A stretch of DNA of 64,000 nt from Candidatus Zipacnadum vermilionense (GCA_029821755.1 JALGSV010000001.1:124001-188000); one strand, 5' to 3'. Shown: positions 37,364 through 61,977, numbered from the stretch's first letter. The notes: generated by a model not told the origin, from the sequence alone. Numbers and translations are program-made.

Positions 37364-37369
37364 AGCGTC

Positions 37370-38818: not shown

Positions 38819-38824
38819 GCCGCC

Positions 38825-39781: not shown

Positions 39782-39786
39782 TCCGT

Positions 39787-41771: not shown

Positions 41772-41785
41772 GGCACGCGCGCACT

Positions 41786-42799
41786 ATGCGGCTGAGCATT
41801 ATCATCCCGGTTCGGAACGAGGCAGCGCACCTTGACAGCCTGCTGCAGTTCGCCACGAGCGGCCAGGAGCCGGAGCGGGAGATCCTGGTCGTGGACGGCA
41901 TGTCCGAGGATGACACCCGGGAGGTGGCCGCCGAGTGGGCGGTGCGGGATCCGCGGGTCCGCCTGATCGACAATCCACAGCGCGTGGTAACCGCCGCGGT
42001 CAACCGGGGCTTCGCGGCAGCGACCGGCGAGGTCCTCATGCGCCTCGATGCCCATGCCCGGTACAACGAAGACTACGTGGCGGAGTGCCTGGCGGTACTG
42101 GAGGAGACTGGTGCCGGGAACGTGGGCGGCGCGGCCCGGCCCCTCTCGGACGGGTCCTTTCTGGGAGACCTGATCCGCGCGATTCATATAAGCCCTTTCG
42201 GGATCGGCGCCGCCCAGTTCCGCCGTGAGGACGCCGAGGGCTGGGTCGACACCGTCTGGCCGGGCTGCTGGCGGCGGGAGGCGCTGGAGGCCGCCGGGAG
42301 ATACCTCTGCGAGGAACTGCCGCGCAGTGAAGACATTGAGCTGAACTCCCGGCTCCTGGCGGCGGGCTGGCGTGTGTACCTCAGCCCCCGCATCAAGGCC
42401 TACTACCAGCCGCGCCGCAGCTTCTCCGCCTTGCTGGGGCAAAACTTCAACAACGGCGTCGGAGTGATGCACACGCTCAAGGCCGGGCTCGGCGGGATTT
42501 CCGGACGACATCTGTTCCCGCTCACCTGTGCACTGGCGGCGGTGTTGCTCGGCGGGGGCGGGTTGCTGTGGTCCCTCGCTTGGTGGATACTGTTGGGCCT
42601 GACCGCGCTGCACCTGCTGGGCGGGCTGGCCTTCGCGGTCAAAGCCTGCGGCGCGGCGCGACCGGGGCTGATCCTTGCTCTGCCCCCGGCCTTCCTGGCA
42701 CTGCACGTCGCCTACGGAGCCGGGTCGGTCCTGGGCCTGATCACGCGCCCCCGGCCTGTTTCGTCGGAGGCACGCGACCCGGACGGGTCGAGCACATAA
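41786..42799 (+). CDS. GT2-family glycosyltransferase with C-terminal membrane helices
   Basis: A protein of 337 residues. GT-A blocks: LSIIIPVRNEAAHLDSLL, VVDGMSEDDT, LMRLDAHARY (D-x-H metal site, as in ExoA), and LPRSEDIELNSRL. Two or three helices follow (about 235-320). The ExoA/succinoglycan-type layout suggests transfer to a lipid-linked intermediate. Its stop overlaps the start of the next gene (TAATG). Confidence 0.86.
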   Translation: MRLSIIIPVRNEAAHLDSLLQFATSGQEPEREILVVDGMSEDDTREVAAEWAVRDPRVRLIDNPQRVVTAAVNRGFAAATGEVLMRLDAHARYNEDYVAECLAVLEETGAGNVGGAARPLSDGSFLGDLIRAIHISPFGIGAAQFRREDAEGWVDTVWPGCWRREALEAAGRYLCEELPRSEDIELNSRLLAAGWRVYLSPRIKAYYQPRRSFSALLGQNFNNGVGVMHTLKAGLGGISGRHLFPLTCALAAVLLGGGGLLWSLAWWILLGLTALHLLGGLAFAVKACGAARPGLILALPPAFLALHVAYGAGSVLGLITRPRPVSSEARDPDGSST

Positions 42800-43728
42800 T
42801 GCCTGCGCGCTTCCCTGACAACCAGGTCTTCGCTTTCTCCATCTTCGACGACACCGACGGCGCCACGGAGGCGAACGTCGGCCCCGTCTACCGCTTGCTG
42901 GCGGAGTTGGGGATCCGTACCACCAAGTCGGTATGGCCCTTGGCCGAGGTGTCGGGAGCGCCGCTGGGCGGGGCGACGCTGCAGGACGCGGCCTACCTGG
43001 GCTTCGTTCGCGGGCTGCAGGCCGATGGCTTCGAGATTGGCTTCCACAACGCCCGCAACTTCGACGCGCCGCGGGAGGTGACCGAGCAAGGCCTGGCGGA
43101 GTTCGTCGATCTGCTGGGGCAACCGCCGCGGACGCACTGCAATCATCACGACAACCGCGAAAACCTCTACTGGGGTCCCGCCCGGCTGAACTCGGTCGGC
43201 CTGCGCCTCGGGTACAACCTGGCCACCCTCGGGCGGTACCGCCGGCGCTTTCAGGGCCACGCGGAGGGCTCGCCCTATTTCTGGGGCGACCTTTGCCGCG
43301 AGCGCTTGCGCTACCTGCGCAACTTCGTCTTCGACGAAATCAACCTGGACGTCATCAATCCAACCATGCCGTACCACGACCCGGCCAAACCGTACGTCCC
43401 CGCGTGGTTCAGCAGCTGCGAGGGCGGCACCGTCGAGAGCTTCTGCCGCCTCCTGCGCGAGGAGAACCAGGACCGCCTGGAAGCACAGGGCGGGGTGTGC
43501 CTGGTCTACACGCACTTTGCCAAGGGCTTCGTGGTGGACGGCGTGGTCCATCCGGAGTTGGCGCGGCTGATGCGCCGGCTAGCCGGCAAGTCCGGCTGGT
43601 TCGCGCCGGTCGGCACGATCCTAGACCATCTGCAGGGCGGCCTGACCGCGGCGACTATTCCGCCGGAGGAACTCCGCCATATGGAGACTCGTTGGCTGCG
43701 GCATAAGCTCTGCTCGGGCAGCTCGTAA
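42799..43728 (+). CDS. polysaccharide deacetylase-like (CE4-fold) protein
   Basis: A protein of 309 residues without a signal peptide. FSIFDDTDGATEANVGPVYRLL resembles the first CE4 motif (D-D), GFEIGFHNARN supplies a His-Asn pair and THCNHHDNRENLYWG a His-rich segment; VYTHFAKGF comes near the end. The motifs are diverged from NodB, so metal binding and activity are inferred. It is coupled to the GT2 gene before it. It may modify a lipid-linked sugar, or may not be catalytic. Confidence 0.65.
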   Translation: MPARFPDNQVFAFSIFDDTDGATEANVGPVYRLLAELGIRTTKSVWPLAEVSGAPLGGATLQDAAYLGFVRGLQADGFEIGFHNARNFDAPREVTEQGLAEFVDLLGQPPRTHCNHHDNRENLYWGPARLNSVGLRLGYNLATLGRYRRRFQGHAEGSPYFWGDLCRERLRYLRNFVFDEINLDVINPTMPYHDPAKPYVPAWFSSCEGGTVESFCRLLREENQDRLEAQGGVCLVYTHFAKGFVVDGVVHPELARLMRRLAGKSGWFAPVGTILDHLQGGLTAATIPPEELRHMETRWLRHKLCSGSS

Positions 43729-43736
43729 TCGTGATC

Positions 43737-44747
43737 ATGTATGAACTGACGCCGGTAAGCTTTGAGTCGGGGGAGGCTTGGGACGCGGCTGTGGTGCGCT
43801 TCGACCTGTGGCACCTGTTCCACACAGCAGCTTGGCTGGACTTCGTCGAGCAGACCCAGCCGGTGACCCGACTAAGCTACGGTATCTACGAAGGGGAAGA
43901 ACTGGTCGGCTACCTCCCGGGCTTCGTGCTGAAGAAGGGTCCGGTCCGCATCTTCGGTTCGCCCTTCCCGGGCTGGACGACGGCCTATCTGGGCCCAGCG
44001 GTCAACCGGGAAGTTGATCCGCGGGCGCTGTTCACGGCTATCGCGAAGGCGCTCCGCCGCGATGGTTTTGCTCACGCCGAGATCCGCTGCCACTTGCTGG
44101 ACTCGCGAGCCGCCGGGGAAGTGGGCTTCCGGCTGTGTCGGAACGAAACGCAAATCGCCGAGCTAGCCGCTGGGCCGGAGGAGATCCTGGAGAGCTTTAC
44201 GAAGGAGGGCCGACGTAACGTACGCTCAGCCTTACGGAAGGGCCTGCGGGCGGAGGTCACCACCGATCCGGGTTTCGTGGACCGGTACTACGACCAGTTG
44301 GAGGCGGTCTTCGCCAAGCACGGTTTGCCGCCGACCTATCCGCGTAGCCGAGTAGAGAAGCTCTGGGAGCTACTCATGCCCACCGGCCGGATGATTTGCC
44401 TTCAGGTGATGCAGGATGACCGGTGTTTAGCCACGGGCATCGATTTGGTCGGCCACGGGTGGCTGCATTCCTTTGGCAGCGCGGCGGTGCAGGACCCGCA
44501 GGCCCTGAAGCTGTACCCTAACGAGCTCCGCCGCTATCAGGGCATGATCGAGGGCGCCGCCCGCGGCCTGCAGCACTACGATCTGACCGGCGTCCGCGCC
44601 TACAAGCGCAAGTTCGGCGCGAAGATCGTGGACGTCCCGGTCCTGATGCGCAGCACCCCGCTCCTGCGTGCGGGGAGAGAGATATTCCGGGGGATGAATA
44701 CACTGAGGATGAGGTGGGGGAGGGCGCTGACCAGGCCCCCCGACTAG
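43737..44747 (+). CDS. FemAB/GNAT-type acyltransferase-like protein
   Basis: A protein of 336 residues with the double-GNAT arrangement of FemAB-like and BioF2-like acetyltransferases: WLDFVEQTQPVTRLSYGIYEGEELVGYLPG in spirit matches the family opening, and FTKEGRRNVRSALRKGLRAE is the conserved basic segment. YDLTGVRAYKRKFGAKIVDVP closes the second domain, with the K-x-x-F-G family block. FemAB-like proteins in exosortase/polysaccharide loci are common. It may transfer an amino acid or acyl group to a sugar. GTG 43731 is an alternative start. Confidence 0.8.
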   Translation: MYELTPVSFESGEAWDAAVVRFDLWHLFHTAAWLDFVEQTQPVTRLSYGIYEGEELVGYLPGFVLKKGPVRIFGSPFPGWTTAYLGPAVNREVDPRALFTAIAKALRRDGFAHAEIRCHLLDSRAAGEVGFRLCRNETQIAELAAGPEEILESFTKEGRRNVRSALRKGLRAEVTTDPGFVDRYYDQLEAVFAKHGLPPTYPRSRVEKLWELLMPTGRMICLQVMQDDRCLATGIDLVGHGWLHSFGSAAVQDPQALKLYPNELRRYQGMIEGAARGLQHYDLTGVRAYKRKFGAKIVDVPVLMRSTPLLRAGREIFRGMNTLRMRWGRALTRPPD

Positions 44748-44781
44748 TGGGAGTTGACGGAGAGTTCGAGGCACGGTTGCC

Positions 44782-46473
44782 GTGATCAATATGGAGCATA
44801 CACGCCAACCTAAGCGGGCCAAGGGTACGAAGACGGCCGAAGGTAAGCGACCGGCTTCGCGCGGTGCAGTCTGGCTGGTCGCTGCCGGAGTCTTCCTCGT
44901 CTACTGCGCCACTCTCTCCGGCGAGGGTGGAAGCACTTACGGACAAGCCTACCTCACGGCCAAGAGCCTGGTTGAGACCGGGGACCTCAGCATTGATGCG
45001 ACCGGGGCCGAGGTGTCGCCGGATCGGATTGGGTCAACCTTCGTCAATGCTAACGGCGAGCGTTATGCCGTTACGGGGGTGCTTTGGAGTCTAGTGGTCT
45101 TGCCTTTCTACGCCGTCGCGCACGCCGCGACGGGGGGAGCAGAAACCGGCAGCGCCGCCGTCCTCGGGAAGCTGCTGACCGGGCTCTATGACCCGCTGCT
45201 TTACGCGCTGTGCGGCGCGCTCCTGTTCTCCATCTGTACACGCCTTTCGGGCTCGCCCCTCCGCGGATGGGGCATCGTGATGCTGTGGAGCTTCGCGACG
45301 ATGACGTGGGGAGTCAGCAAGTATTCCTCGTACGTCAGTCTGTTGTCGTCTCTGCTGCTGGGAGTTGTCTGGTTCCTATCGACCAAAGGCGGGACACCAT
45401 CGTGGAGAGCCTTCTTGGGGGCTGGGGCATGCCTGGCTATGGTGGCACTGGCCCGCACGCAAGAGGTGGCTCTGATACCTGCGGGCATGCTGTACGCTGG
45501 GGCGCGGCTCCGGGCCCTTCCCAGCGGCGCGCGCAAGAATGCAGCAGCGCTTTTCATGGCGCCCATCGTCTTGGCCTTGGTGGCGTTGGCGCTGCTCAAC
45601 ATGCACAAGTTCAGCTCTGGGCATCCGTTCGGCTACACTAGTCAGCCAAGTGGGCCGCTCTGGGTTGGTCTGTGGGGGCTACTGCTTAGCCCTGGTCGAA
45701 GCATCCTGCTCTTCTGCCCGCCCGTCGTGCTGGGGTTGTGGTGCCTGCTGCGAACCGGTCCCCGGTGGGTCCCAGAGCGGCTTTTCTTGGCCGTCGCTGC
45801 CGTGATCATGCTCTTGCTGTATGCCTCCTTCCGCTGTTGGCCCGGCGATTGGGGAGACTGGGGGCCTCGGTATCTTGCTCCGCTGGTTCCGCTGTTGCTT
45901 GTGCCGCTCGCCATGGTGGACGGAGACACGTGGGGACGGTCGGTGCGGAGGGCCGCCCTCGTCGCAGGTATCGTGGGAGTCCTGGTGCAGATCCCCGGAG
46001 TCCTCCTGCGTCCCGGCGCCTATCAGTGGCCCTTGCGGGTGGTCGAGAAGGAAGGTGCATCCCTGGGGCCGGTCGATTCACTGTTCTGGCCGCAGTTCTC
46101 GCCGGTATTCTTGGGCTACCGTCTGCTGTATGAGAAGACGGTGGCCATGGCGAGTGGAGTCCCACCATCGCTTACGCTGCAAATCTGCGATGCCAACAGC
46201 GTGGTGCGCGCCGCGACGGTGCCGTTGACCGCGGAGATGTTACGCAACAGCGACTTTGTGAGCCATGCGCTCTTCTCGCTGGAGCAGGGCTCATTCAGCC
46301 GGTCGCACCAGCACTGGAGGGCTCTGGCATGGGTACTGAGGGTAGCGCAAGGAGGCGTCTTCGTCTCCGGCCTCTTGTGCCTGATCTGCGCAAGGAGACG
46401 CCTGCGGGAGACTGGCGCTGGATCAGACCAGGGACCTGCGCCGAAGCCGACTGACTCGTGCGCCTGCAGGTGA
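44782..46473 (+). CDS. polytopic membrane protein, possible GT-C glycosyltransferase
   Basis: A protein of about 563 residues with 10-12 hydrophobic helices after a basic N terminus. The loop after the first helix (GSTYGQAYLTAKSLVETGDLSID) resembles GT39-type proteins but without the usual D-D or D-E pair, and CWPGDWGDWGPRYLAPLVPLLLVP is a block shared with uncharacterised bacterial GT-C-like proteins. The C-terminal 100 residues are largely extracytoplasmic. Start at GTG 44782 or ATG 44791; neither has a good ribosome site. It ends the long glycosyltransferase train. Confidence 0.6.
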   Translation: MINMEHTRQPKRAKGTKTAEGKRPASRGAVWLVAAGVFLVYCATLSGEGGSTYGQAYLTAKSLVETGDLSIDATGAEVSPDRIGSTFVNANGERYAVTGVLWSLVVLPFYAVAHAATGGAETGSAAVLGKLLTGLYDPLLYALCGALLFSICTRLSGSPLRGWGIVMLWSFATMTWGVSKYSSYVSLLSSLLLGVVWFLSTKGGTPSWRAFLGAGACLAMVALARTQEVALIPAGMLYAGARLRALPSGARKNAAALFMAPIVLALVALALLNMHKFSSGHPFGYTSQPSGPLWVGLWGLLLSPGRSILLFCPPVVLGLWCLLRTGPRWVPERLFLAVAAVIMLLLYASFRCWPGDWGDWGPRYLAPLVPLLLVPLAMVDGDTWGRSVRRAALVAGIVGVLVQIPGVLLRPGAYQWPLRVVEKEGASLGPVDSLFWPQFSPVFLGYRLLYEKTVAMASGVPPSLTLQICDANSVVRAATVPLTAEMLRNSDFVSHALFSLEQGSFSRSHQHWRALAWVLRVAQGGVFVSGLLCLICARRRLRETGAGSDQGPAPKPTDSCACR

Positions 46474-49904: not shown

Positions 49905-51143
49905 ATGCCTTTGACCCCCAGCCCTCCTGACGCTCAGCGGCTTCCACTCTCGCCGGAGTTCCGGACACTGATCGCCTGCGTGCGCGACGAGTCGCCGGAA
50001 TCCCTGGGTGACCACCTGTTTGCGGTCGGACCAGACGCAGGCGAACTCCTGTGTCTGGCTGGGGCCCACGGGGTTACATCTCTGCTATACTTATGCTTGG
50101 AGAGGAAGGGTCTGGCGGGGGAACTGCCCCCGGACGCCCGGGCGCGACTGGCGACAACTCATATTACCCTGGCGGCGCGGCAGACGCGCATGATCAGTGT
50201 GGCGCTGGAGATTATCCGAGCGCTGGAGCATCGCGGCCTCCGCTGTCTACCTCTGAAGGGGACCGCGCTCATCGCCGCGGCCTGGCCCACCTACCTCCCG
50301 CGGGACATGGTGGATCTCGACTTGCTGGTGGCGGCGGAGGATTGGATGGAGGCAGGAGCGATACTGGAGGGGCGGGGATTCTCGCCGCAGAGAGAGGGAG
50401 AGTTGCACTGCCCCTGGCTGGCTCATGGGCTTCCCCTGTTGCGCGACGGGATGATGCTCGAGCCGCACACCGCCCCCTGGGGCCACAACCCGATGGAGCC
50501 TCCCTTCCGCCCGAGCTGCGACCAGCTCTGGGCGCGGGCCCGGTCGGGAGCGCTATTGGACCAGCCCGTTCCCGTCCCCTCCCCCGAGGACATGGTGCTC
50601 ATCCTCCTGACCGGCCTGGCGCGCGATCGGTTCTCCAGCTTGCTGCGCTCCTGGGCGGACCTGCGCTGGCTCCTGTCGCCCGAGGGCGGCGGCGCGGACA
50701 CCGCGGTGCTCTGGGAGCGGGCGGCGGCTCTGCATGCCGGCAAACTCCTGGCGATATGTCTGCGGTTCGCCGGGGAGCTGCTGGGGGATGTCTTACCTGT
50801 GGTGCCGGAGTGCCTAGACATGGACTCCGCCTACGGGCGCGTGAGGCCGATCCTATGGCGGCGGCTGCTCATGGCTGAGAGCCTTCCCCGGGTGCCGCGG
50901 TCAGCCTTGCGGGTACTCGCCGGCGGGCGGGGTGTGGCGACTGAGGTGGGGGAAGCGGGGTGGGCCTGGGCGGCCGAGGCCGGGGGGCTGCCGGCTCGGG
51001 CGGGGCGCTTGGGCGCTTGGGCAGGGCTGGTCGGCGGAGGCTTGGTCTATGCGGGACGCCTGGCCGTCTCGCGCCGAGCCCGCCAGGCGCTTCGCGAGGA
51101 GGCGTACCTCTTACGAGCGGTACGAGAGCGGGAAGCAGCCTAG
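49905..51143 (+). CDS. NTP_transf_5-type nucleotidyltransferase family protein
   Basis: A protein of 412 residues. The block ALEHRGLRCLPLKGTALIAAA followed by YLPRDMVDLDLLVAAED is the signature of the PF14907-type family, with D-x-D-x-x-V as the metal motif of the nucleotidyltransferase fold. The remaining two thirds are helical. Such proteins occur beside PqqD, HprK-like kinase and exosortase/polysaccharide genes, and a related nucleotidyltransferase occurs with an HprK-like kinase in some lasso-peptide clusters. It faces the RiPP-like operon tail-to-tail, so it is a candidate but not a proven member of that system. Target is unknown. Confidence 0.78.
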   Translation: MPLTPSPPDAQRLPLSPEFRTLIACVRDESPESLGDHLFAVGPDAGELLCLAGAHGVTSLLYLCLERKGLAGELPPDARARLATTHITLAARQTRMISVALEIIRALEHRGLRCLPLKGTALIAAAWPTYLPRDMVDLDLLVAAEDWMEAGAILEGRGFSPQREGELHCPWLAHGLPLLRDGMMLEPHTAPWGHNPMEPPFRPSCDQLWARARSGALLDQPVPVPSPEDMVLILLTGLARDRFSSLLRSWADLRWLLSPEGGGADTAVLWERAAALHAGKLLAICLRFAGELLGDVLPVVPECLDMDSAYGRVRPILWRRLLMAESLPRVPRSALRVLAGGRGVATEVGEAGWAWAAEAGGLPARAGRLGAWAGLVGGGLVYAGRLAVSRRARQALREEAYLLRAVREREAA

Positions 51144-51246: not shown

Positions 51247-51741
51247 CTATCCCCGCAGTGCTCGCGGTGGCCCGCCCAGCGTGCAGCGGCGTCGCGTTCG
51301 TGGGTGGCGCAGGCGAATCAGGCCGGGAATCAGCAGCGCCAGCCGTCGGCGTAGCAGGGCCAGTCGGAAGCGGCTGACGAGCGCCTCGCGGCTCACCTCA
51401 CCGTCACCTGACTTGACCGACTCCACCCGGCCCAGGACGCTTCCCATCGGCACCGGCAGATCCGGCCACGGAATCGCATCTCCCCACGTCTGCACCCGCC
51501 GTTGTTCCCCAGCGCCCGACACCCGCACGACCCGGTGGCACACCGGATAGCCGTCGGAGGTCACGAAGAGCACGATGTCCCCGGGGCGCAGGTCGTCCGG
51601 ATCCAGCTTCCGCAGGACTACCAGGTCGCCATCCTCGACGGTAGGACGCATGCTCTTCCCCCGCATGCGGGTCTCGCAGGCCCGGCCCCGGCCCAGCAGA
51701 TCGGAAATAACCTCGCGGTAGTCGGAGGGGGAGAGCTTCAT
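51247..51741 (-). CDS. S24/S26-type serine peptidase without membrane anchor
   Basis: A protein of 164 residues. GKSMRPTVEDGDLVVL places the nucleophile S30 in the S-M-x-P box of signal peptidases, DGYPVCHRVVRV gives H69 as general base as in the ER/SipW type, and TWGDA supplies a late Asp. Bacterial type I signal peptidases use Lys and have an N-terminal membrane helix; this protein has neither, so it is probably soluble or peripherally bound through its basic C-terminal helix. It is last in the minus-strand operon and overlaps the kinase gene by ATGA. It could remove the leader of the precursor peptide encoded at 52599-52751; that is inference. Confidence 0.8.
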   Translation of the reverse strand: MKLSPSDYREVISDLLGRGRACETRMRGKSMRPTVEDGDLVVLRKLDPDDLRPGDIVLFVTSDGYPVCHRVVRVSGAGEQRRVQTWGDAIPWPDLPVPMGSVLGRVESVKSGDGEVSREALVSRFRLALLRRRLALLIPGLIRLRHPRTRRRCTLGGPPRALRG

Positions 51742-52595
51742 AGGACCTCACGGAGTCGCTCGACGGCTGACTGATCGGGCATAAAGCCAAAGTCATAGAC
51801 AGGCACAGTGCGTGCGGTGCGGTCCAGGAGTTCAACAGTGGGTGGAATCGTGGCCGGGTCCCAGGTGAAGAACCGGGTATTCTCCAGCAACCGCTGCCCG
51901 GCCTCCGCAGGGGTCAGCCGAGACAGTTTGTGGGCAGGAGCATGGCGAAGGAAGAAAACAGCATCCAGGGGACCGGAGAGATCGCAGGGGGGACCCAAGA
52001 GGCCATTCCAGGGCGTGCCATGTGCCCAGGCGCGGTCCTCGTGCCAGGTCAAAACCGGGTACTCCTCGGTAAGACATGTTCCTCCGGCATCGGCCACCAG
52101 CCGCCCCAGGGTGCTCTTGCCGACGCCCTTGTCGCCGAGCAGCATGACAAAGCGGCCGTCCACAAAACACACGGCTCCATGCAGCAAGGCCCCGCCGTGG
52201 TGCGCCAGATAGCCCCAGAGGGGCAGATATAGCCAGGCCAGTCCCCTTTCGTTGCCAGTCCTCTTTGTCTCGGCGGCGCGCCGAAGCATCAGGCAGCAGG
52301 CCGAAAAATCGGGAGCAGCACGAAGCAAGGCCCAGCCGTGATCCATCTGAAACACGTCCGGGGAACTTTCAACCAAAGGGGCAACGGGTGACGCACCGCG
52401 ACCGGGAGGCGGACCATCGTGCTCTCCCGGGGGCAATACTTCGAGGTCAAGGTCGGGTGCCTGAGAACGACAATCACTAACACGGTAGGGGAGGAGGCGC
52501 GAGTCCGGGCCACGTTCGTCATCCCTCACGCGGGCCCGGATGTTGGCTCCAGCGACATGCAGGCGAAGCAGATTGTCGACGCGAGGGCAATTCAC
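51738..52595 (-). CDS. HPr kinase-like protein of a RiPP operon
   Basis: A protein of 285 residues. The N-terminal ~80 residues match the small beta domain of HprK-related kinases. HHGGALLHGAVC precedes the Walker A loop GDKGVGKST (154-162), and CLTEEYPVL stands where HprK has its acidic metal site. Relatives are found with PqqD/radical SAM genes, and one, in the paeninodin lasso peptide cluster, phosphorylates a peptide Ser. The precursor next door has four Ser in its core. Translation begins at GTG 52595, three bases after the precursor stop, with no ribosome site of its own, so it is coupled to it. It overlaps the peptidase gene downstream. Confidence 0.8.
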   Translation of the reverse strand: MNCPRVDNLLRLHVAGANIRARVRDDERGPDSRLLPYRVSDCRSQAPDLDLEVLPPGEHDGPPPGRGASPVAPLVESSPDVFQMDHGWALLRAAPDFSACCLMLRRAAETKRTGNERGLAWLYLPLWGYLAHHGGALLHGAVCFVDGRFVMLLGDKGVGKSTLGRLVADAGGTCLTEEYPVLTWHEDRAWAHGTPWNGLLGPPCDLSGPLDAVFFLRHAPAHKLSRLTPAEAGQRLLENTRFFTWDPATIPPTVELLDRTARTVPVYDFGFMPDQSAVERLREVL

Positions 52596-52598
52596 CAG

Positions 52599-52751
52599 CT
52601 AGACACATACGCCGCTATAGCTACACGGCCTGAACGACCGACACCCGAAGGCGGCGAGGAAGATACCACAATCACTTCGGCACGCGGTGAGCACATCGGT
52701 ATCCGCCTCTAAGATGACTTCCCTTACTTCCGGCTTGATCCATTTGTTCAT
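52599..52751 (-). CDS. candidate Cys-rich RiPP precursor peptide
   Basis: A 50-residue peptide read on the minus strand from ATG 52751 to TAG 52599. The first ~23 residues form a leader with W4, K6, P7, E8, V9 and an E/D-rich stretch, recalling the W-x-K-P-x-x start of PqqA and other PqqD-bound precursors. The last 27 residues hold five cysteines (24, 28, 37, 43, 49), four serines (26, 39, 44, 46) and a Tyr at 45, with three Arg. It is preceded by an excellent GGAGGAGG at nine bases, lies 36 bases after the radical SAM gene and three bases before the kinase gene. Gene order, signal and composition all indicate the substrate of the operon. It has not been matched to a known class. Confidence 0.8.
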   Translation of the reverse strand: MNKWIKPEVREVILEADTDVLTACRSDCGIFLAAFGCRSFRPCSYSGVCV

Positions 52752-52760
52752 TGTGCCTGA

Positions 52761-52768
52761 CCTCCTCC
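52761..52768 (-). promoter_or_regulatory. strong ribosome-binding site of the precursor peptide gene
   Basis: GGAGGAGG on the minus strand, nine bases before ATG 52751. It is the strongest site in the operon; the other genes rely on overlap or weak sites, so the peptide is likely to be made in excess over the enzymes. Confidence 0.75.
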
Positions 52769-52787
52769 AAGCAGGCCCTGATGGCCC

Positions 52788-53909
52788 CTATCTCTCGCCG
52801 AGCACTGATTCACCCCGGGCCAGGTCCGCATGGCGCTGCCACTCCGGGCCGATATACGCCTCGGCGCGCCTTTGTGACATCTCGCAGTAGACCGGAGCAG
52901 GCCCCCCTAGCGGCGTGCCCTCGAGCAGGGCACAGGCGGGGCAGTAACGACATAGATCCGCGAGCGGGCAGGTATTGCACACACCCGACCCGTTGCCCAG
53001 TTCGGCCAAGGCCATCGGCATGGCCTGTCGCCATCCCTCCCGCACCGACCCCGTGCGCAGGTCGTACCGAATCGCTTCTAGAAGCCCGCAGGGCCGCATG
53101 TTGCCATACGGGTCCAAATGGAAACTGCGCGTACCAACGCGGCACCGGAACAAGCCCTGCCACGGTCGTGGCGGTCGCCACTCGGCGGTCTCCCCTTGCC
53201 ACGCCGCAGTGCGCTCCTCGTCGACCGCCTCAAGTGCCATCACCTGCTCGGGAGACAATCTTTCGCCGAAGGGGTCGCCCCCTCCTTCTTGGAAGTGCCC
53301 CACCATCTCTGCGTCCCATCGCACCTTGTCACCGTATTCAGCGCAGACTTCGCGAAGGGCGTCGAATTCGTGGACGTTGCGTCGAGTCAGGACCGTCTTC
53401 AACTCCAGCTTGACCCCGCGATTCGTCAGCAACTCGATGGCTGACGTGACTCTGGCGAGCATTCCGTGCGTCCCGGTGACGTCCCGGTGCGTCGCCTCTG
53501 AGGCCGCATATAGGGTTATGGATACCTGTACCGGGGTCCATTCCGCCAGCAAGTCAACATGCTCTGGCGTGAGCAAGGACCCGTTAGTGAACAACTCCAG
53601 TAGCAAACCGCGGCGCTTGGCGGAGATCCACAATTTGCGGAAGTCCGGGTGTAGCAACGGCTCCCCTCCGGTGAAAGTGAGGAACAGCACCCCTTCGTCC
53701 GCACATTCCCCCAGGATTCGGTCCCATTCCGCAAAGGATAACTCGCGCTGGGCTTGGGGGGCGTCCTGGGGCAGGCGGCAGTAGCAGTGGTGGCAGTGGA
53801 AGTTGCACCGATAGGTGAGATCGGCGGTTACGCCAAGGGGGATTTGGGCGTCCTCGACCAGCAGCTCCTCACAGATGTGATCGATCTTGAGGCAAGCAGG
53901 CTCACTCAT
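52788..53909 (-). CDS. radical SAM/SPASM peptide-modifying enzyme
   Basis: A protein of 373 residues. The radical SAM cluster motif is C35-x3-C39-x2-C42 (YRCNFHCHHCYC), followed by FTGGEPLLHPDF. The C-terminal SPASM domain has a Cys series: FRCRVGTRSFHLDPYGNMRPCG, then CNTCPLADLCRYCPAC and a last YCEMSQRR, enough for two auxiliary [4Fe-4S] clusters. Such enzymes crosslink or otherwise alter precursor peptides (PqqE, sactisynthases and ranthipeptide enzymes among them). It overlaps the PqqD gene by 8 bases and precedes the precursor gene. A thioether crosslink between Cys and another core residue is a natural guess; it cannot be read from sequence. Confidence 0.9.
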   Translation of the reverse strand: MSEPACLKIDHICEELLVEDAQIPLGVTADLTYRCNFHCHHCYCRLPQDAPQAQRELSFAEWDRILGECADEGVLFLTFTGGEPLLHPDFRKLWISAKRRGLLLELFTNGSLLTPEHVDLLAEWTPVQVSITLYAASEATHRDVTGTHGMLARVTSAIELLTNRGVKLELKTVLTRRNVHEFDALREVCAEYGDKVRWDAEMVGHFQEGGGDPFGERLSPEQVMALEAVDEERTAAWQGETAEWRPPRPWQGLFRCRVGTRSFHLDPYGNMRPCGLLEAIRYDLRTGSVREGWRQAMPMALAELGNGSGVCNTCPLADLCRYCPACALLEGTPLGGPAPVYCEMSQRRAEAYIGPEWQRHADLARGESVLGER

Positions 53910-54231
53910 TGGCCCTCACCAGCCTGACGAAGCCCCTGCTGACCAGATCATCGAGCAGCTCCGCCACATCCGCGGTGATAGCGTCGCCGGGGCCCTCATA
54001 CTCCTGGCTGAGAAGGGCCACCAGTTCGTCCAGAGGTCGGGGCTGGGAAAGGTGGGCCCAGACGGCAGCGCTGGTCTCGTTGAGCAGGTAGACCTTCTGA
54101 ACGTCCACGCCCGTCTGGTGGAGGGGGATGAGGAGGAATTGCCCCGCGATCTGGCGCGCTACTACGTTCTCGGCTTGGCGGAAAATGCCTGGCGTCTCCT
54201 CCGGCACGACGGTTCCCCTCTCGGTCGGCAT
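53902..54231 (-). CDS. PqqD-family peptide-chaperone protein
   Basis: A protein of 109 residues from ATG 54231. It has the PqqD layout: RQIAGQFLLIPLHQTGVDVQKVYLLNETSAAVWAHL in outline gives the beta strands and the L-N-E-T-x-A-x-x-W motif, and LVALLSQEYEGP with DVAELLDDLVSRGFV the helical half. PqqD-type proteins bind the leader of the precursor and present it to the radical SAM partner, whose gene overlaps this one. GTG 54279 would add 16 residues without homology. It is the first gene of the operon. Confidence 0.87.
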   Translation of the reverse strand: MPTERGTVVPEETPGIFRQAENVVARQIAGQFLLIPLHQTGVDVQKVYLLNETSAAVWAHLSQPRPLDELVALLSQEYEGPGDAITADVAELLDDLVSRGFVRLVRANE

Positions 54232-54333
54232 TAGGCTGGAATTGGGCTCCGGCCGAGGCGCAAGAATAACACTACCCACCAGGACCGCCGTCTACTGCTG
54301 AGCAGGCCGACGCCCCAGCACGAGTCACTGGCA

Positions 54334-54535: not shown

Positions 54536-54579
54536 AGCTGCGCATTGGACCGCATATCGTTAGTTGAGGGGGGATGACG

Positions 54580-55167
54580 ATGTCATCTAGACTTCGCCTC
54601 GGTCTCGGATTGGTCCTACTGCTCGTAGTGGCGTGCGCCACCACCGCCTTCTCCGATAACGTCGTCTACATCGGCGAGACTCCGAGTAGTGGCATGGCCG
54701 GTTGGGGCGGGAGCTACGGCGGGTACTCAGGCCTCGATTACAGTGATTCACTGTGGGACTATGTCTACACCGTCGAAACCTGGGGGGGGCTTGGTGCCGC
54801 GCTCTTCGGCGTCCAGGTTCACTCCGATAACCTGAGTGACATTTGGGTCGTCTGGACTGGCGGTGACGACTGGCAGGGCGCCATCACCTACGATCCTGCT
54901 TTCGACTTTGGGGGGCTTCTTCCCCACCTGGGTGACAGTGTCGCCGTCGCTTGGTGGAGAAATGGGCCAGCACCGCCTGAGAGCATCATATTCGGATTCC
55001 AGAGCTCCCTCGGTCCGGAACTCCGCCCGTTTGATCTGGTTGGTAACGAAGAGGCGCTAGACACAGGCGACGTCTATTCGACCAGTCCCGAGCCGGGCAC
55101 ACTAGCGCTGGCCTCGATGTTGCTCCTGGGGGCGGGGGTTTGGCGTCGGCGGCGCCGCCGTCGGTAA
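54580..55167 (+). CDS. PEP-CTERM sorting-signal protein
   Basis: A protein of 195 residues. A signal peptide (about 1-26, ending TTAFSD) leads an exported beta-rich domain. The C terminus has P-E-P at about 170-172, a hydrophobic helix (TLALASMLLLGAGVW) and a run of seven Arg: a full PEP-CTERM signal for the exosortase encoded at 9951. It shares the pattern V-Y-x-G-E-x-P near the N terminus and S/T-L-W-D-Y-V-Y in the middle with the next gene product, so they are paralogues. The function of the exported domain is unknown. ATG 54580 is preferred over ATG 54574 because GAGGGGGG is then at proper spacing. Confidence 0.87.
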   Translation: MSSRLRLGLGLVLLLVVACATTAFSDNVVYIGETPSSGMAGWGGSYGGYSGLDYSDSLWDYVYTVETWGGLGAALFGVQVHSDNLSDIWVVWTGGDDWQGAITYDPAFDFGGLLPHLGDSVAVAWWRNGPAPPESIIFGFQSSLGPELRPFDLVGNEEALDTGDVYSTSPEPGTLALASMLLLGAGVWRRRRRRR

Positions 55168-55230
55168 ACGCGAGAACGGCCCGCTCGCCCGAAGTTTTCG
55201 CCGCAAAGCAGGTTATTCCGTCACAGATGT

Positions 55231-55238
55231 GGTATACT
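55231..55238 (+). promoter_or_regulatory. extended -10 promoter of the second PEP-CTERM gene
   Basis: TATACT (55233-55238) is preceded by TGG, forming an extended -10. The region where a -35 would lie (about 55211-55218) is AT-rich but poor. It is about 80 bases before ATG 55316. Confidence 0.45.
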
Positions 55239-55315
55239 ATTCGTGTGGGGAGCGATTGGGATCACCTTCTGGGTTCCGCGTAGCTCTAGTTCCTCACTCT
55301 GGGGGGGTATCCGTT

Positions 55316-55900
55316 ATGTTTCTCAGCAGATCCTCAACCGCCGTTAGAGGTCTCCTGGTAGTAGCCCTCGTCTGTCTGACCATCGGCTACGCTGCTGCCG
55401 ATTCCCTGGTCTACCAGGGCGAAGCTCCCGTGGGATCTGGGTATCCTAACGAGGGTATTTCCTCCTACACCGGGTCGAACGCCAGTGGCACTCTCTGGGA
55501 CTATGTGTACGACATTAGCGGCTGGACTACCGGCCCTTCTTCGGTGCAGCAGTGGGGGATAGAGGTGCTTACACCCATCGCGTCGGGTAAGATATGGTCA
55601 CCTGCAGAATGGACTGCCACGTATTACCCCGTGGTGCCCAGCGACATGGGCGGATTCGACACTCTCTGGGGGAAGATGGCCGTCATCTGGGTTGCCGGTA
55701 TTAATGCGCAAGTGGCCGAGGGATTCCATTTCCAGAGCGGGCTCCCTCCGGTGAAGCTGGCCTACGACTCTGACAGGTCAGCCTTCCTCGGCGATGAGTG
55801 GTCGGCCTCCATACCGGAACCCTCGACACTTCTCCTGGCGAGTGCGTTGCTGCTCAGCGCCGGAATCGCGAGAAGGCGGCGAAAACATGCGAAGAGCTGA
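55316..55900 (+). CDS. PEP-CTERM sorting-signal protein, paralogue
   Basis: A protein of 194 residues with a signal peptide (about 1-28, ending YAAAD), an exported domain and the C-terminal P-E-P (167-169), hydrophobic helix ([16 protein letters not shown]) and RRRRK tail. The mature start [12 protein letters not shown] and the block [12 protein letters not shown] align with the preceding paralogue. ATG 55316 is used because the upstream open frame has no signal peptide in register and crosses the promoter. Its 3' end overlaps the prepilin-like gene by 14 bases. Confidence 0.87.
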
Positions 55901-56682: not shown

Positions 56683-56717
56683 TGGCAACCGGTAGACTCA
56701 GAGCTTGAGAGGTGCCC

Positions 56718-58514
56718 ATGTCCTTGTCCACCCACTTCTCCCTTCGGCGAGGCTCGATGCTCAATTCCGAGTCCTTAGTCAAACGCGGCACCCTAGCGGC
56801 CGGCTTGCTGATCATTGCGTTGATTGTGCTGGCGACGAAGTTCACCTCACTCGACGTCAATGGCGCTGACTACGCGCAGTTGGCTCGGAACCTGGCCACC
56901 GGGCATGGTTACACCACTTCGGTGATTACGCCCCTGAGCCTGGCCCTGGTGCCCCGGATCGAGAATCACCCCGAGATGACGCGGCCGCCGGCGTACGTCA
57001 CGGTACTGGCCCTCGGCATGCTCATCGGCGGCGCGACAGACAAGACAGTGGCCGTGATATCGATAATCTTCTTGCTGCTAACCGCGCTGGCGCTCTACTT
57101 CATCGCCCTGCGCGTCTTTGGCCCGCGGGTGGCCCTGTGGGCCTTGCTGCTGTACGCCACGTCTGTGCCGCTGCTTCGGCAGGCGATCTCCGGTCTGGAC
57201 ACGACCTTCCTGTCCTTCCTGGTCACATTGCTTTTCGGGGCGCTCATATGGAACTACCGGGCTGCGCGGGGCGAGGAGGACGAGGAGGAAGAGCCCTCAA
57301 GACTCGGCTTGTGCGTGCCCATTGCGGTCGGGGTACTGGTGGGCCTGTGCTACCTCACCTCGTACGACACGCTGGTGCTCTTGCCGGTGGCGCTGTACTT
57401 CCTGTGGCGGGCGGACCGCCCCCAGGCCAAGCGCAACCTGATAGCCGTGCTCGTTGTCTTCCTAATCTTGGTCCTGCCCTGGATCATTCGGTGTTCGGTG
57501 ATCGCGGGCGGGCCCTTCATCTCGCTGCACAGCTACGAACTGGCCATGTTCACCGACCAGTACCCGGGCCAGACGCTCTTCCGGCGCTTCGACGATGTCC
57601 CGAGCAAGCCGTGGCTCATGCTGATAGCCCACTGGCCTGACATGGTCAAGAAGATCGGCCAGGGCATCGGCGGGCTGTACACCGACGCCGCGCAGTTTGC
57701 GGGTCCGTACCTGATGCCGTTCTTCATCGTGGGGCTGCTACTAGCCGCGCCTCGCCGGCGCTCGGTGCTGCTGCACGGCTGTCTGGGGCTGGCGATCCTC
57801 CTGCAGCTCGCCGTCCTATGCTACTACCAGCCGCTGGCGAGAATCCTGCTGCCCTACGCGCCCATGGTGGCGATGCTGGCAGTGTTCTGGTTCACGACCC
57901 TGGTGGAGGAATGGAACGAGGCGCTGCTTGGTTTGCGGCGGCATTACCAGGGCCTAGGCCTGTCGCTGGACGCGGTGCTGTACGCCGGCCTCGTCGTGGC
58001 GATGGCCATACCGCTAGTGCTGTTCCTGTTTCTGAGCGGCGAGTCGCGCGCGCACCCGGCGATTGACACCATGAGGCAACTTGGGTCCATGCCCTATCCC
58101 TACCTGGCGACTGACCTGCCCTGGCTAGCGGCCTGGTACGGCGACAAGCAGGCCCTATCTCTGCCCTACCGCGAGCGGGACTGGACGGCCATGGAGCAGG
58201 CTAAGCTCACCCCTCCCGCGATCTACCTCTCGCCCGCCCTGTTGGAGGCACCTCCCACGGAGAGGATGGAGTCCTGGCAGCGCTTGCTCCTGTCGGGCCA
58301 GGACTTCCACGGAATGAAACGAATACCGAACTGGCGGCAGGCCGGGGTGCTCCTGGCCAAGACCGCGCCGCCTTCGCCGGCCGTGCGGGGAGCCAGGGGG
58401 GCGACGGGGAGCGGAACGCCCGCGACCGGGGGCAGGCCGCCGGCTGCCGGTAGCGCAAGTGGAGAAAGAGCGCCAGCCGGCGGAGCACCCACGGGCTCGG
58501 CGGCCCCGCCGTAG
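56718..58514 (+). CDS. GT39-like polytopic membrane glycosyltransferase
   Basis: A protein of 598 residues with about 11 membrane helices. After the first helix the loop LDVNGADYAQLARNLATGHGYTTS and MTRPPAYVTVLALGML follow the ArnT/PMT-like GT-C pattern (D-x-x-x-Y, R-P-P-x-Y). The last ~55 residues are a low-complexity Ala/Gly/Pro/Ser tail. Such enzymes use lipid-linked sugars on the outer membrane face and can glycosylate proteins or lipids. ATG 56718 has GAGAGG five bases upstream. It is transcribed before the deoxysugar genes but separated by about 255 bases. Confidence 0.75.
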   Translation: MSLSTHFSLRRGSMLNSESLVKRGTLAAGLLIIALIVLATKFTSLDVNGADYAQLARNLATGHGYTTSVITPLSLALVPRIENHPEMTRPPAYVTVLALGMLIGGATDKTVAVISIIFLLLTALALYFIALRVFGPRVALWALLLYATSVPLLRQAISGLDTTFLSFLVTLLFGALIWNYRAARGEEDEEEEPSRLGLCVPIAVGVLVGLCYLTSYDTLVLLPVALYFLWRADRPQAKRNLIAVLVVFLILVLPWIIRCSVIAGGPFISLHSYELAMFTDQYPGQTLFRRFDDVPSKPWLMLIAHWPDMVKKIGQGIGGLYTDAAQFAGPYLMPFFIVGLLLAAPRRRSVLLHGCLGLAILLQLAVLCYYQPLARILLPYAPMVAMLAVFWFTTLVEEWNEALLGLRRHYQGLGLSLDAVLYAGLVVAMAIPLVLFLFLSGESRAHPAIDTMRQLGSMPYPYLATDLPWLAAWYGDKQALSLPYRERDWTAMEQAKLTPPAIYLSPALLEAPPTERMESWQRLLLSGQDFHGMKRIPNWRQAGVLLAKTAPPSPAVRGARGATGSGTPATGGRPPAAGSASGERAPAGGAPTGSAAPP

Positions 58515-58769
58515 CGGGCACCGGCCAGGGCGCGTCTGAGGAACCTGTCGGTCCTGGCAGTCGTCGGCACGCGCAGTTCCCGGCGATCTTGTCAGGAGGG
58601 CTATCCCAGCCAGCTCCGGCTTAGGCCTCGCGCGTGTCCACCCGGCTCCCGAGGAACCATCAGGGAGTGTAGGTGGCAGCCCGCGGCGACTGGCGCTTCC
58701 TCGGCTGCTTCACCTCGTACCCTCCCCCTGCTTGACTTGTCCTCGGGCCGCGCTGTAGGAGACGGCAAC
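58515..58769. other. intergenic stretch, no gene seen
   Basis: This 255-base gap before the RfbH gene holds no credible coding sequence. A TTGACT at 58732 lies too near the start codon and has no -10, so no promoter is called. Confidence 0.5.
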
Positions 58770-60083
58770 GTGAACGAAGCGGAGATCAGGGAGCAGATAC
58801 TCGGTCTGGCGCGGCGACTGTGTCGGATGCGGACGGCCGACCATGTCTTCGTGCCAGGCCGGACCCAAGTGCACTATGCCGGGCGCGTCTTCGACGAGGA
58901 GGAAATGGCTTCGCTGATCGACTGTGCGCTCGACGGGTGGCTGACGGCGGGACCGTATGCCGAGCGCTTCGAGCGGGCCTTCAGCGACTACCTCGGCGTG
59001 GGCCACACCCTCCTGGTCAACTCCGGGTCCTCCGCGAATCTGCTCTGCGTGGCCGCTCTGACCTCCCCCAAGCTCGGGGACCGTCGCCTGCGCCCCGGCG
59101 ACGAGGTCATTACCACCGCCGCGGGCTTTCCCACTACCCTCGCCCCGCTGGTGCAGCACCAACTGGTCCCCGTCTGCGTGGATGTGGACCTCGGCACCTA
59201 CAACGCCAACCCCGATCTTCTGCGCGAGGCTGTCTCGCGGCGCACCCGCGCGATCTTTCTCCCTCACACCCTGGGCAACCCCTTTGACCTGGACGCGGTC
59301 CACCGGATAGCGGAGAAGCACAGTCTGTTCCTCCTGGAGGACAACTGCGACTCGCTGGGTAGCCGCTATGACGGCAAGCCCACGGGCAGCTTCGGGCACC
59401 TGGCTTCCCACAGCTTTTTCCCCGCGCATCACATCACGATGGGGGAGGGGGGGGCCGTGGTTACCGACGACCAGGAGTTAGCCCGCGTCGTCGCCTCTCT
59501 GCGCGATTGGGGGCGCGACTGTTGGTGTGAGCCGGGGCAATCCAACTCCTGCGGTCAGCGCTTCACCCAGCAGCACGGCAAGCTGCCCCTTGGCTACGAC
59601 CACAAGTACGTCTACTCGCACGTCGGCTACAACCTGAAGCTCACGGATCTGCAGGCCGCCTTCGGTCTGGCCCAGCTGGGCAAGCTGCCGGGCTTCATCG
59701 AAGCCAGGAAGCGCAATTTCACGCGGTTCCACCAGCATCTGACCCGGTATGCCGACCGGCTGATTCTTCCCGAGGCCACGCCCCACAGCGACCCGGCGTG
59801 GTTCGCCTTCCCCGTGACCGTGCGCCCCGAGGCGGGCTTCAGCCGCGGTGAGCTAGTGGGGTTCTTGGAGGAGAACCTGGTGGAAACGCGCACCCTCTTC
59901 GGGGGTAACCTCCTGCGCCAGCCGGCCTTTCTCGACATCCACCACCGCGTGGTCGGGGGCCTGTCCAACACGGATTTGGTGATGAACAATACCTTCTTCG
60001 TGGGGGTCTACCCGGGGATCGACGAGGCCCGCGCGGCGTACGTGATGGAAGTGTTCGACCGCTTCTTCCAGGTGAGCACATGA
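58770..60083 (+). CDS. rfbH: CDP-4-keto-6-deoxy-D-glucose-3-dehydrase (E1, RfbH/DdhC-type)
   Basis: A protein of 437 residues of the DegT/StrS fold, the same length as the Yersinia E1 enzyme. Counting from GTG 58770, the PLP-lysine position is His (H220 in FFPAHH), as in E1, so it works as a PMP-dependent dehydratase rather than an aminotransferase. The [2Fe-2S] cysteines C193, C251, C253 and C261 are all present in the E1 numbering. E1 with a reductase removes the 3-hydroxyl of CDP-4-keto-6-deoxyglucose to give 3,6-dideoxysugars. AGGAG precedes GTG 58770. It overlaps the next gene by ATGA. No ddhA/B-type genes are in the window. Confidence 0.92.
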   Translation: MNEAEIREQILGLARRLCRMRTADHVFVPGRTQVHYAGRVFDEEEMASLIDCALDGWLTAGPYAERFERAFSDYLGVGHTLLVNSGSSANLLCVAALTSPKLGDRRLRPGDEVITTAAGFPTTLAPLVQHQLVPVCVDVDLGTYNANPDLLREAVSRRTRAIFLPHTLGNPFDLDAVHRIAEKHSLFLLEDNCDSLGSRYDGKPTGSFGHLASHSFFPAHHITMGEGGAVVTDDQELARVVASLRDWGRDCWCEPGQSNSCGQRFTQQHGKLPLGYDHKYVYSHVGYNLKLTDLQAAFGLAQLGKLPGFIEARKRNFTRFHQHLTRYADRLILPEATPHSDPAWFAFPVTVRPEAGFSRGELVGFLEENLVETRTLFGGNLLRQPAFLDIHHRVVGGLSNTDLVMNNTFFVGVYPGIDEARAAYVMEVFDRFFQVST

Positions 60084-61087
60084 GTCAAGCCGCGGCGCGA
60101 CGCTGGGGGCCGGCGCTGCGCGTAGGGCTGGGGTTCGCCATCAGCGCGATCGCCCTGGTGGCGGTGCTGCGGCAGGTGCATTGGGATCAGGTGGTGGCTG
60201 CCTGGCAGGCTGCCGACGCGCGTTTCCTGGTCCTCGGCGCGCTGTTGTACCCCTGGCGCCTGGTGTTCATTTCGGCCCGGTGGCAGGAGCTACTGCGCCT
60301 CTACGGTCCGACCCCCGCCTTCCGGGTGACGCTACGCGCTACCAGCGTCGGTTACCTCTTCAATAACCTGTTGCCCCTCCGGTCCGGGGACCTAGTGCGC
60401 GGCGCGATGGTGGTGCGGGAGGGCGTGACCATTCGCGCCGCCGCTTCCAGCGTGTTGCTGGAGAAGGTGGTGGATCTCTGGGCGCTGGTGGCCATCGCGC
60501 TGCTGGCGGGAGGCGCCTTCCTGCGGCAGGAGCCGGCGCTCTTGCGGTCGCTACACTGGGTGGCGCTGGTGGCGGGGGTGAGTCTCGGCGTCTTCCTGGC
60601 AGTGGCGCTATCGTGCAGCGCCGAGCAGGCAGGGGCGTGGTGTGACCGGGCGACGACGCGAACAGGTCGGCTGCTAGCCAAGCTGGCGCGGGTCGTGGTC
60701 GAGAGCGGCCAGTTGTGCCGCCGCCCGGGGCCGCTGTTGATCACGCTCGCGGCCACGGCGGTCAACTGGGGGATCGAGGCCTGCTTCTACCTGCTAGTGG
60801 CGCGCTCCCTGGGAATGCCCCTCACGATAGCCGGCGCCCTGTTCATGGTCTCCGTGATCGGGCTGGGGCTGTCGGTGCCGACCACTGCGGGAGGCATCGG
60901 CGTATGCCAGTACCTGGCGGTGGCTGTGCTGAAGGTTCAAGGAATAGGCGTCAACGTGGCGGCCGCCTATTCCCTGCTCAGCTATGCCGTGGCCTTCGTG
61001 TGCCTCAACGGCGTGGGCCTGGTCTTCCTGGTGACAGGAGCGCTGCGCAAGCCGCCTGCCAACGTGTCCGAGGGAGGGACAGTATGA
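60080..61087 (+). CDS. YbhN/UPF0104-type membrane protein (lysylphosphatidylglycerol synthase TM family)
   Basis: A protein of 335 residues with about eight helices. GYLFNNLLPLRSGDLVRGAMVVR and VPTTAGGIGVCQYLAVAV are the two family signatures (N-x-x-L-P-x-R-x-G-D/E and P-x-x-x-G-G-x-G). Members are membrane proteins of uncertain role, often suggested to flip lipids or glycolipids; AglD-like ones act in glycosylation. It is coupled by ATGA to both the RfbH gene and the SDR gene, so a role in moving or using the deoxysugar lipid is plausible. Confidence 0.82.
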   Translation: MSQAAARRWGPALRVGLGFAISAIALVAVLRQVHWDQVVAAWQAADARFLVLGALLYPWRLVFISARWQELLRLYGPTPAFRVTLRATSVGYLFNNLLPLRSGDLVRGAMVVREGVTIRAAASSVLLEKVVDLWALVAIALLAGGAFLRQEPALLRSLHWVALVAGVSLGVFLAVALSCSAEQAGAWCDRATTRTGRLLAKLARVVVESGQLCRRPGPLLITLAATAVNWGIEACFYLLVARSLGMPLTIAGALFMVSVIGLGLSVPTTAGGIGVCQYLAVAVLKVQGIGVNVAAAYSLLSYAVAFVCLNGVGLVFLVTGALRKPPANVSEGGTV

Positions 61088-61977
61088 GCAGTGGGCCACC
61101 CCGGGTCCTGATCACCGGCGGTAGCGGCTTTATCGGGCGCAACCTGGCCGAGCAACTTGCCGACGAATTCGCGGTCCTCGCGCCCTCGCACCGGGAGCTG
61201 GAGCTACTGGACGAGGAGGCGGTGGAGGCCTATCTATCAGCGCACCGGGTGGATTTCGTGGTGCACAGCGCCGCCAAGCCCGGCCACCGCAACGCCCCGG
61301 ACCGCTCCGGCCTGGTGGAAGCCAACCTACGCATGTTCTTCAACCTGGCCCGCCAGGCAGATCGCTTCGAGCGTCTCGTCTTCCTCAGTAGCGGCGCGGC
61401 CTACGACCTGCGTCACTACCAGCCCCGGATGCCGGAGGAGTACTTCGACACCCATGTGCCTGCCGACGCCGTCGGCTTCCCCAAGTACGTTTGCGCCAAG
61501 TACCTGGAGCGCGCGGAACGCCTCGTCGAGCTTCGCCCCTTCGGAGCCTTCGGCAAATACGAGGACTGGGAGATTCGCTTCATCTCCAACGCCATCTGCA
61601 AGACGCTTTTCGACTTGTCGGTGACCATCCGCCAGAACCGTCGCTTCGATTACGTCTACGTGGATGACCTGGTGACGGTGGTCCGGCACTTCTTGCAGCA
61701 TGGGGGCCGCCATAAGGCTTACAACGTCACCCCTGACACTACCGTGGAGCTGCGGGAGCTGGCGGAGAAGGTCGTGGCTGTTTCCCAGAAGAACTTGCCG
61801 GTGGTGATCGAGCAGGAAGGTCTGGGGTCGGAGTACAGCGGCGACAACCGGCGCCTGCGGGAGGAGATCCCCGGCCTGCAGTTCACCCCGATTGACGAGG
61901 CGATCAGCCGTCTGTACGAGTGGTACGCCGACCATCGCGACCTGATCCGCTACGAGGCGCTGCTGGCCGACAAGTAG
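61084..61977 (+). CDS. NAD-dependent sugar epimerase/reductase of the extended SDR family
   Basis: A protein of 297 residues. ITGGSGFIGRNLAEQL is the NAD(P) loop near the N terminus, VVHSAAKPGH the next strand, FLSSGAAYD the Ser region, and YVCAK the Y-x-x-x-K catalytic pair. The C terminus holds FDYVYVDDLVTVV, typical of sugar-nucleotide SDRs. It lies between RfbH and the TPP enzyme. In yersiniose synthesis a ketoreductase (YerF) acts after the TPP step, so this could be its counterpart or a ketoreductase or epimerase of a dideoxysugar; inference only. Start fixed by ATGA overlap. Confidence 0.85.
   Translation: MSSGPPRVLITGGSGFIGRNLAEQLADEFAVLAPSHRELELLDEEAVEAYLSAHRVDFVVHSAAKPGHRNAPDRSGLVEANLRMFFNLARQADRFERLVFLSSGAAYDLRHYQPRMPEEYFDTHVPADAVGFPKYVCAKYLERAERLVELRPFGAFGKYEDWEIRFISNAICKTLFDLSVTIRQNRRFDYVYVDDLVTVVRHFLQHGGRHKAYNVTPDTTVELRELAEKVVAVSQKNLPVVIEQEGLGSEYSGDNRRLREEIPGLQFTPIDEAISRLYEWYADHRDLIRYEALLADK

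Follow-up and report, generated by a model that had tools for sequence, protein, structure and literature searches.

The window analyzed here, a 64,000-nucleotide stretch from Candidatus Zipacnadum vermilionense, contains five minus-strand genes, all with intact frames that lack stops, in the order RRE, radical SAM enzyme, peptide, kinase and S26 peptidase. An earlier note on this DNA had claimed five tightly packed genes behind one promoter, and all of them were found where it had placed them. The first gene (53902-54231, minus strand) encodes a PqqD-like discrete RiPP recognition element (RRE; PF05402, E=7.4e-15, 55.5 bits), for which ATG at 54231 is the preferred start, with the frame open up to a GTG at 54279; its nearest NCBIfam model is the lasso PqqD chaperone NF033536 (E=1.7e-5, far below the cut-off). 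It is followed on the same strand by genes for a radical SAM/SPASM peptide maturase (52788-53909; PF04055 Radical_SAM, E=6.3e-23, 82 bits), a Cys-rich precursor peptide of 50 residues (52599-52751), a peptide kinase with a predicted HprK/PEPCK fold (51738-52595), and an archaeal/SipW-type S26 peptidase (51247-51741; TIGR02228, 66.4 bits against a cut-off of 51.85). The packing is as tight as had been described: the PqqD and radical SAM genes overlap by 8 bp (53902-53909) and the kinase and S26 genes by 4 bp (51738-51741), and the peptide gene is separated by 36 bp from the radical SAM gene and by 3 bp from the kinase gene. The single promoter is weakly suggested by one sigma-70-like site upstream of the operon (54362-54334, 10/12 matches); two such sites were found in the region, where 0.6 would be expected. 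Missing from the earlier description was a convergent plus-strand gene for an NTP_transf_5 nucleotidyltransferase (49905-51143; PF14907, E=3.8e-41).

The operon lies within an exopolysaccharide-type locus (36155-46473 and 56712-61977), and the flanking genes encode GT9, GT2 and GT4 glycosyltransferase-type proteins, Wzy_C (O-antigen ligase-type), YjbH, GNAT, a DegT aminotransferase, and an epimerase. Two divergent genes that start just upstream of the operon (54574-55167 and 55229-55900) encode short secreted proteins with PEP-CTERM-like tails, the matches of the first being just below the cut-off. The same genome contains a second PqqD-type gene (G000:C43:106457-106645). No MsbA-type exporter was detected on the 236-kb contig that carries the window (contig 17); ABC_membrane domains were found only on contigs 71, 2 and 26.

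The precursor gene is preceded by a ribosome-binding site, GGAGGAGG (52761-52768, minus strand), 9 nt ahead of its ATG. The peptide consists of a leader, MNKWIKPEVREVILEADTDVLTA, and a Cys-rich core, CRSDCGIFLAAFGCRSFRPCSYSGVCV, with the leader/core boundary presumably between the two; its Cys residues occupy positions 24, 28, 37, 43 and 49, as had been reported. That this peptide is a real precursor is supported by homologues in the equivalent position in four further genomes from the same phylum. In a member of the same genus (G014), the full order of RRE, radical SAM, peptide, kinase and S26 genes is repeated, together with the convergent NTP transferase, and in G279 (Candidatus Zipacnadia), G273 and G270 the peptide also sits between the radical SAM enzyme and the kinase; loci L062, L063, L064 and L071 have the window's gene order, with a precursor in that place. 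The earlier note had proposed conservation of both leader and Cys positions as a test, and only the former held up: the five aligned peptides have [WY]x[KR]P...VLxxC in common, the window version being W4-I-K-P7 and [YW]xxP being kept in relatives, whereas the Cys spacing differs in every homologue and only C24, which closes the leader block, is kept.

We then used a profile built from the leader columns only to search approximately 20,000 small frames from the collected loci and identified 45 distinct precursors at E<=0.01 (E=7.5e-10 for the window peptide), with the leader consensus [YW]xxP...EExVLxxC. Serine is the last residue in 41 of these 45 precursors, against a background of 9.7% among the small frames of that DNA (3e-37 by a simple binomial that ignores relatedness). 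At least two Cys residues, mostly two or three, are present from the leader end onward in 44 of the 45; the window and G014 peptides have five. The four precursors that lack a terminal Ser are those of the window (Val), G014 (Cys) and G273 (Pro), and one Cys-less peptide next to a second kinase gene of G270. A Ser at core position 3 (C-R-S in the window) was considered as a family feature and dropped, as it is not conserved across precursors. The second G270 locus for an HprK-like kinase (L039; kinase at G270:C154:1842-2312) has a leader-like Cys-less peptide, MKKHYEAPEVRLIPVRPEDAVLQQYGSPEQEALKQVGLGSGDSGK, which perhaps belongs to a different RiPP type. Three Nitrospirota loci (L085, L087 and L088) each contain two tandem precursors between the radical SAM and kinase genes, and one precursor of each pair has a near-identical core of the CITG(A/S)xCPxLxS type.

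The radical SAM enzyme contains CNFHCHHC at residues 35-42 and SPASM C-terminal Cys residues at 256, 274, 311, 314, 320, 323 and 342, and is 56, 54 and 48% identical to its three nearest homologues. In a profile search against PDB its best match was SkfB (2.2e-19), followed by PqqE (5.5e-18), and none of the NCBIfam sactipeptide or ranthipeptide maturase models reached its cut-off. In a tree built from matches in the window's phylum and one scan of named genomes, the enzyme belongs to a 33-member clade (support 100/100), within which the window, G014, G279 and G273 form a starred set of four. The clade spans the window's phylum, Nitrospirota, Verrucomicrobiota, Lentisphaerota, Kiritimatiellota, Planctomycetota, Chloroflexota, Acidobacteriota and deltaproteobacterial genomes, these names being the labels of metagenome-assembled genomes. 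The radical SAM gene is adjoined by an RRE gene in all 33 loci, and by genes for an HprK-like kinase in at least 27, an S26 peptidase in at least 26 and NTP_transf_5 in at least 15 (14 besides the window), these three counts being lower bounds because several loci end at contig edges. Two loci from Aminicenantes and Acidobacteria (L084 and L124) have three radical SAM genes plus RRE and S26 genes, with one frame running through into an HprK-like domain; they are a more elaborate relative of the window operon. Two loci from Clostridia (L106 and L110) have the order S26, RRE, radical SAM, HprK, with kinases that lack the first Asp (G-D), and the candidate peptide of L106 has no terminal Ser.

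The window S26 protein, with its putative triad S30, H69 and D88, is presumed, by analogy, to be the leader peptidase; in the family alignment the corresponding columns contain Ser in 30, His in 32 and Asp in 32 of 32 sequences.

The kinase was a sub-threshold match in Pfam (Hpr_kinase_C, E=0.43). Its AlphaFold2 model (pLDDT 84.9) has PEPCK and HprK/P as the top Foldseek matches (E of approximately 1e-6 to 1e-5), and the protein is thus predicted to have the HprK/PEPCK fold. The lasso peptide kinases PadeK, ThcoK, SyanK and PsmK phosphorylate a C-terminal Ser, and their His-Lys-Asp-Asp residues were shown to be important (PMC9266682, PMC10368454). Because HprK-type kinases of lasso systems act on this residue, the terminal Ser across the precursor family points to the kinase target. 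The window departs from this pattern on both sides: its precursor ends in Val, and its kinase keeps H139 and the P-loop K160 but has E177-E178 where relatives carry D-D or D-E (LTEEY versus L(T/S/N)D(D/E) in most of the aligned relatives). Glu at the first Asp position is found in the window kinase only; other members of the branch keep the first Asp. The kinase substitutions common to the three members that do not end in Ser and absent from Ser-ended G279 are few and scattered, with no clear signature. Given a precursor without the terminal Ser and a kinase without the Asp pair, the predicted +80 Da mass change is doubtful for the window member, and phosphorylation in this system may have been changed or lost. 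Judging from the sequence, the window kinase would either now target a Ser or Thr within the peptide (S26, S39, S44, S46, T18 or T22) or be weak or inactive. G279, although nested inside the window branch, still has a Ser-ended precursor and D-E in its kinase, which implies that the terminal Ser was lost repeatedly or, once lost, was regained.

The closest published parallel is that of the linear polyphosphorylated peptides (LPP), described in Bacillota only (Popov et al. 2026; PMC13381572). In Paenibacillus LPP, the RRE binds a [Y/W]xxP leader, the HprK-like kinase LppK places up to four phosphates on core Ser, and LppS, an archaeal-type S26 signal peptidase, cuts the leader only with the RRE; LPP and paeninodin clusters occur in exopolysaccharide loci (PMC13381572). 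The window has the same setting in a polysaccharide locus, a discrete RRE (PF05402) with a matching leader (W4-I-K-P7), an archaeal-type S26 peptidase above the TIGR02228 cut-off with the same Ser/His/Asp (S29/H68/D93 in LppS), an HprK-like kinase by predicted fold, although its Asp pair is replaced by Glu, and a convergent NTP transferase (PF14907) that corresponds to the LppN/PsmN-type partner. However, LPP clusters have an MsbA-like exporter, for which there is no counterpart on contig 17; of the LPP precursor motif YxxPxVLxHQxIxFETxxS, the window shares only the [YW]xxP part; the phosphorylated LPP site is core Ser3, whereas the window's wider family has a C-terminal Ser; and the LPP paper does not mention radical SAM enzymes (PMC13381572), whereas the window operon has a radical SAM/SPASM enzyme and a Cys core. 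The SynChlorMet cassette (NCBIfam TIGR04248-04251) also brings together HprK-like ScmC, PqqD-like ScmD and radical SAM/SPASM proteins, but it has two radical SAM models (ScmE and ScmF) versus one such enzyme in the window operon, and assignment to it was rejected, as all models scored far below cut-off (ScmC 21 of 125 bits, ScmF 74 of 400, ScmD 17 of 100). Full-text literature searches on SynChlorMet found no papers.

We considered four other readings of the locus. That the 50-residue frame is a chance ORF, with the true substrate elsewhere, is very hard to credit: the frame is short and scans against Pfam and NCBIfam gave no match above cut-off, but it has a ribosome-binding site, counterparts with matching position and leader in four other genomes, and leader profile E-values near 1e-10. 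Just as improbable is a lasso peptide cluster that carries additional genes. Paeninodin/pseudomycoidin-type clusters do share the PqqD-type RRE, the HprK-like kinase, the nucleotidyltransferase, the [YW]xxP leader and, in the window's relatives, the C-terminal Ser of the precursor, and PsmN is known to decorate phospho-Ser (PMC9266682). However, the window has radical SAM and S26 enzymes in place of the macrolactam cyclase; with no match to the Asn-synthase-type cyclase (PF00733) on the 236-kb contig 17, and with none of the operon proteins being a lasso leader peptidase, we rejected this assignment.

The two remaining readings each keep part of the chemistry. In an ordinary sactipeptide or ranthipeptide operon, the RRE and the radical SAM/SPASM enzyme would make thioethers, and the kinase, S26 and NTP transferase genes would be incidental neighbors. 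An RRE, a radical SAM/SPASM maturase and a Cys-rich peptide are indeed the usual plan of that class (SkfB, StsA/B/C, PapB), SkfB is the best PDB relative of the maturase, the window leader weakly matches the NCBIfam StsA model (E=0.0079), and StsC-type RREs also recognize W/Y/LxxP. Yet the association of the kinase and S26 genes with the radical SAM gene persists through deep clades and phyla, the precursors end in a Ser that thioether chemistry does not need, and the maturase models of that class all score far below cut-off; we regard this reading as improbable. A better case, though still an unlikely one, can be made for a decaying phosphopeptide system, in which the kinase of the window branch is inactive and the product is modified by the radical SAM enzyme only. 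On the one hand, the window, G014 and G273 precursors lack the terminal Ser, the window kinase has the Glu pair, and the Cys count rises to five in the window and G014. On the other hand, the operon is compact with every frame intact, H139 and K160 are retained, as is the first Asp in other branch members, and BsfK, which targets Ser3 where the peptide has no terminal Ser (PMC10368454), is an example of such kinases shifting to an internal Ser.

Instead, we consider it probable that a linear Cys-rich RiPP is produced by this operon through an LPP/paeninodin-like pathway that includes a radical SAM step. The PqqD-like RRE would bind the leader at its W-I-K-P motif and pass the precursor to its partner enzymes. 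The radical SAM/SPASM enzyme would then modify the core, and Cys-based crosslinks such as thioethers are our best guess, because SkfB, a sactipeptide enzyme, and PqqE are its nearest relatives among solved structures and the near-invariant Cys at the leader end is nearly always followed by a second one. The HprK-like kinase would phosphorylate a Ser: the C-terminal one across the wider family, and another one, if any, in the window. The resulting phosphate may be elaborated further by the NTP_transf_5 protein. The S26-type peptidase would remove the leader near A23/C24. The basis of this pathway is the gene set, synteny, the conserved leader, the terminal Ser of the relatives, the Ser/His/Asp residues of the S26 peptidase and the kinase fold; from it we infer the chemistry, step order, cleavage site and function. 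Counting against it are the Val end, E177-E178, the lack of an MsbA-type exporter on contig 17 and the Cys spacing that varies among close relatives, and the product of the radical SAM enzyme cannot be read from the sequence.

The proposal of a RiPP operon with a Cys-rich precursor is thus upheld by syntenic homologues and a conserved leader, but the suggestion that it may be a new class was too strong, because an RRE, an HprK-like kinase, an S26-type leader peptidase, an NTP transferase and a [Y/W]xxP precursor are the published LPP set. Novelty lies in the radical SAM/SPASM enzyme and the Cys core, together with a terminal-Ser rule that holds across many phyla. The precursor family is widespread and apparently undescribed: no record of a radical SAM/SPASM enzyme combined with an LPP-like set and such precursors turned up in NCBIfam, in Pfam or in full-text searches, a coverage that leaves out most subscription journals, and a prior description elsewhere is possible. 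With somewhat less than even confidence, we suggest a RiPP class, distributed over many phyla, in which one and the same precursor is acted on by a radical SAM/SPASM crosslinker and a C-terminal-Ser HprK-type kinase and an S26-type enzyme serves as leader peptidase. The window branch would have moved away from terminal phosphorylation to a core that is richer in Cys and more crosslinked, with the kinase retained in altered form.

In this conserved cassette, core modification by a radical SAM enzyme meets phosphorylation by an HprK-type kinase, two RiPP chemistries so far seen apart. The cassette reaches well beyond Bacillota, so that the new S26-type leader peptidases gain a broad distribution among phyla. 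The signature [YW]xxP...EExVLxxC...Ser-stop offers a means to search for this precursor family in little-cultured bacteria.
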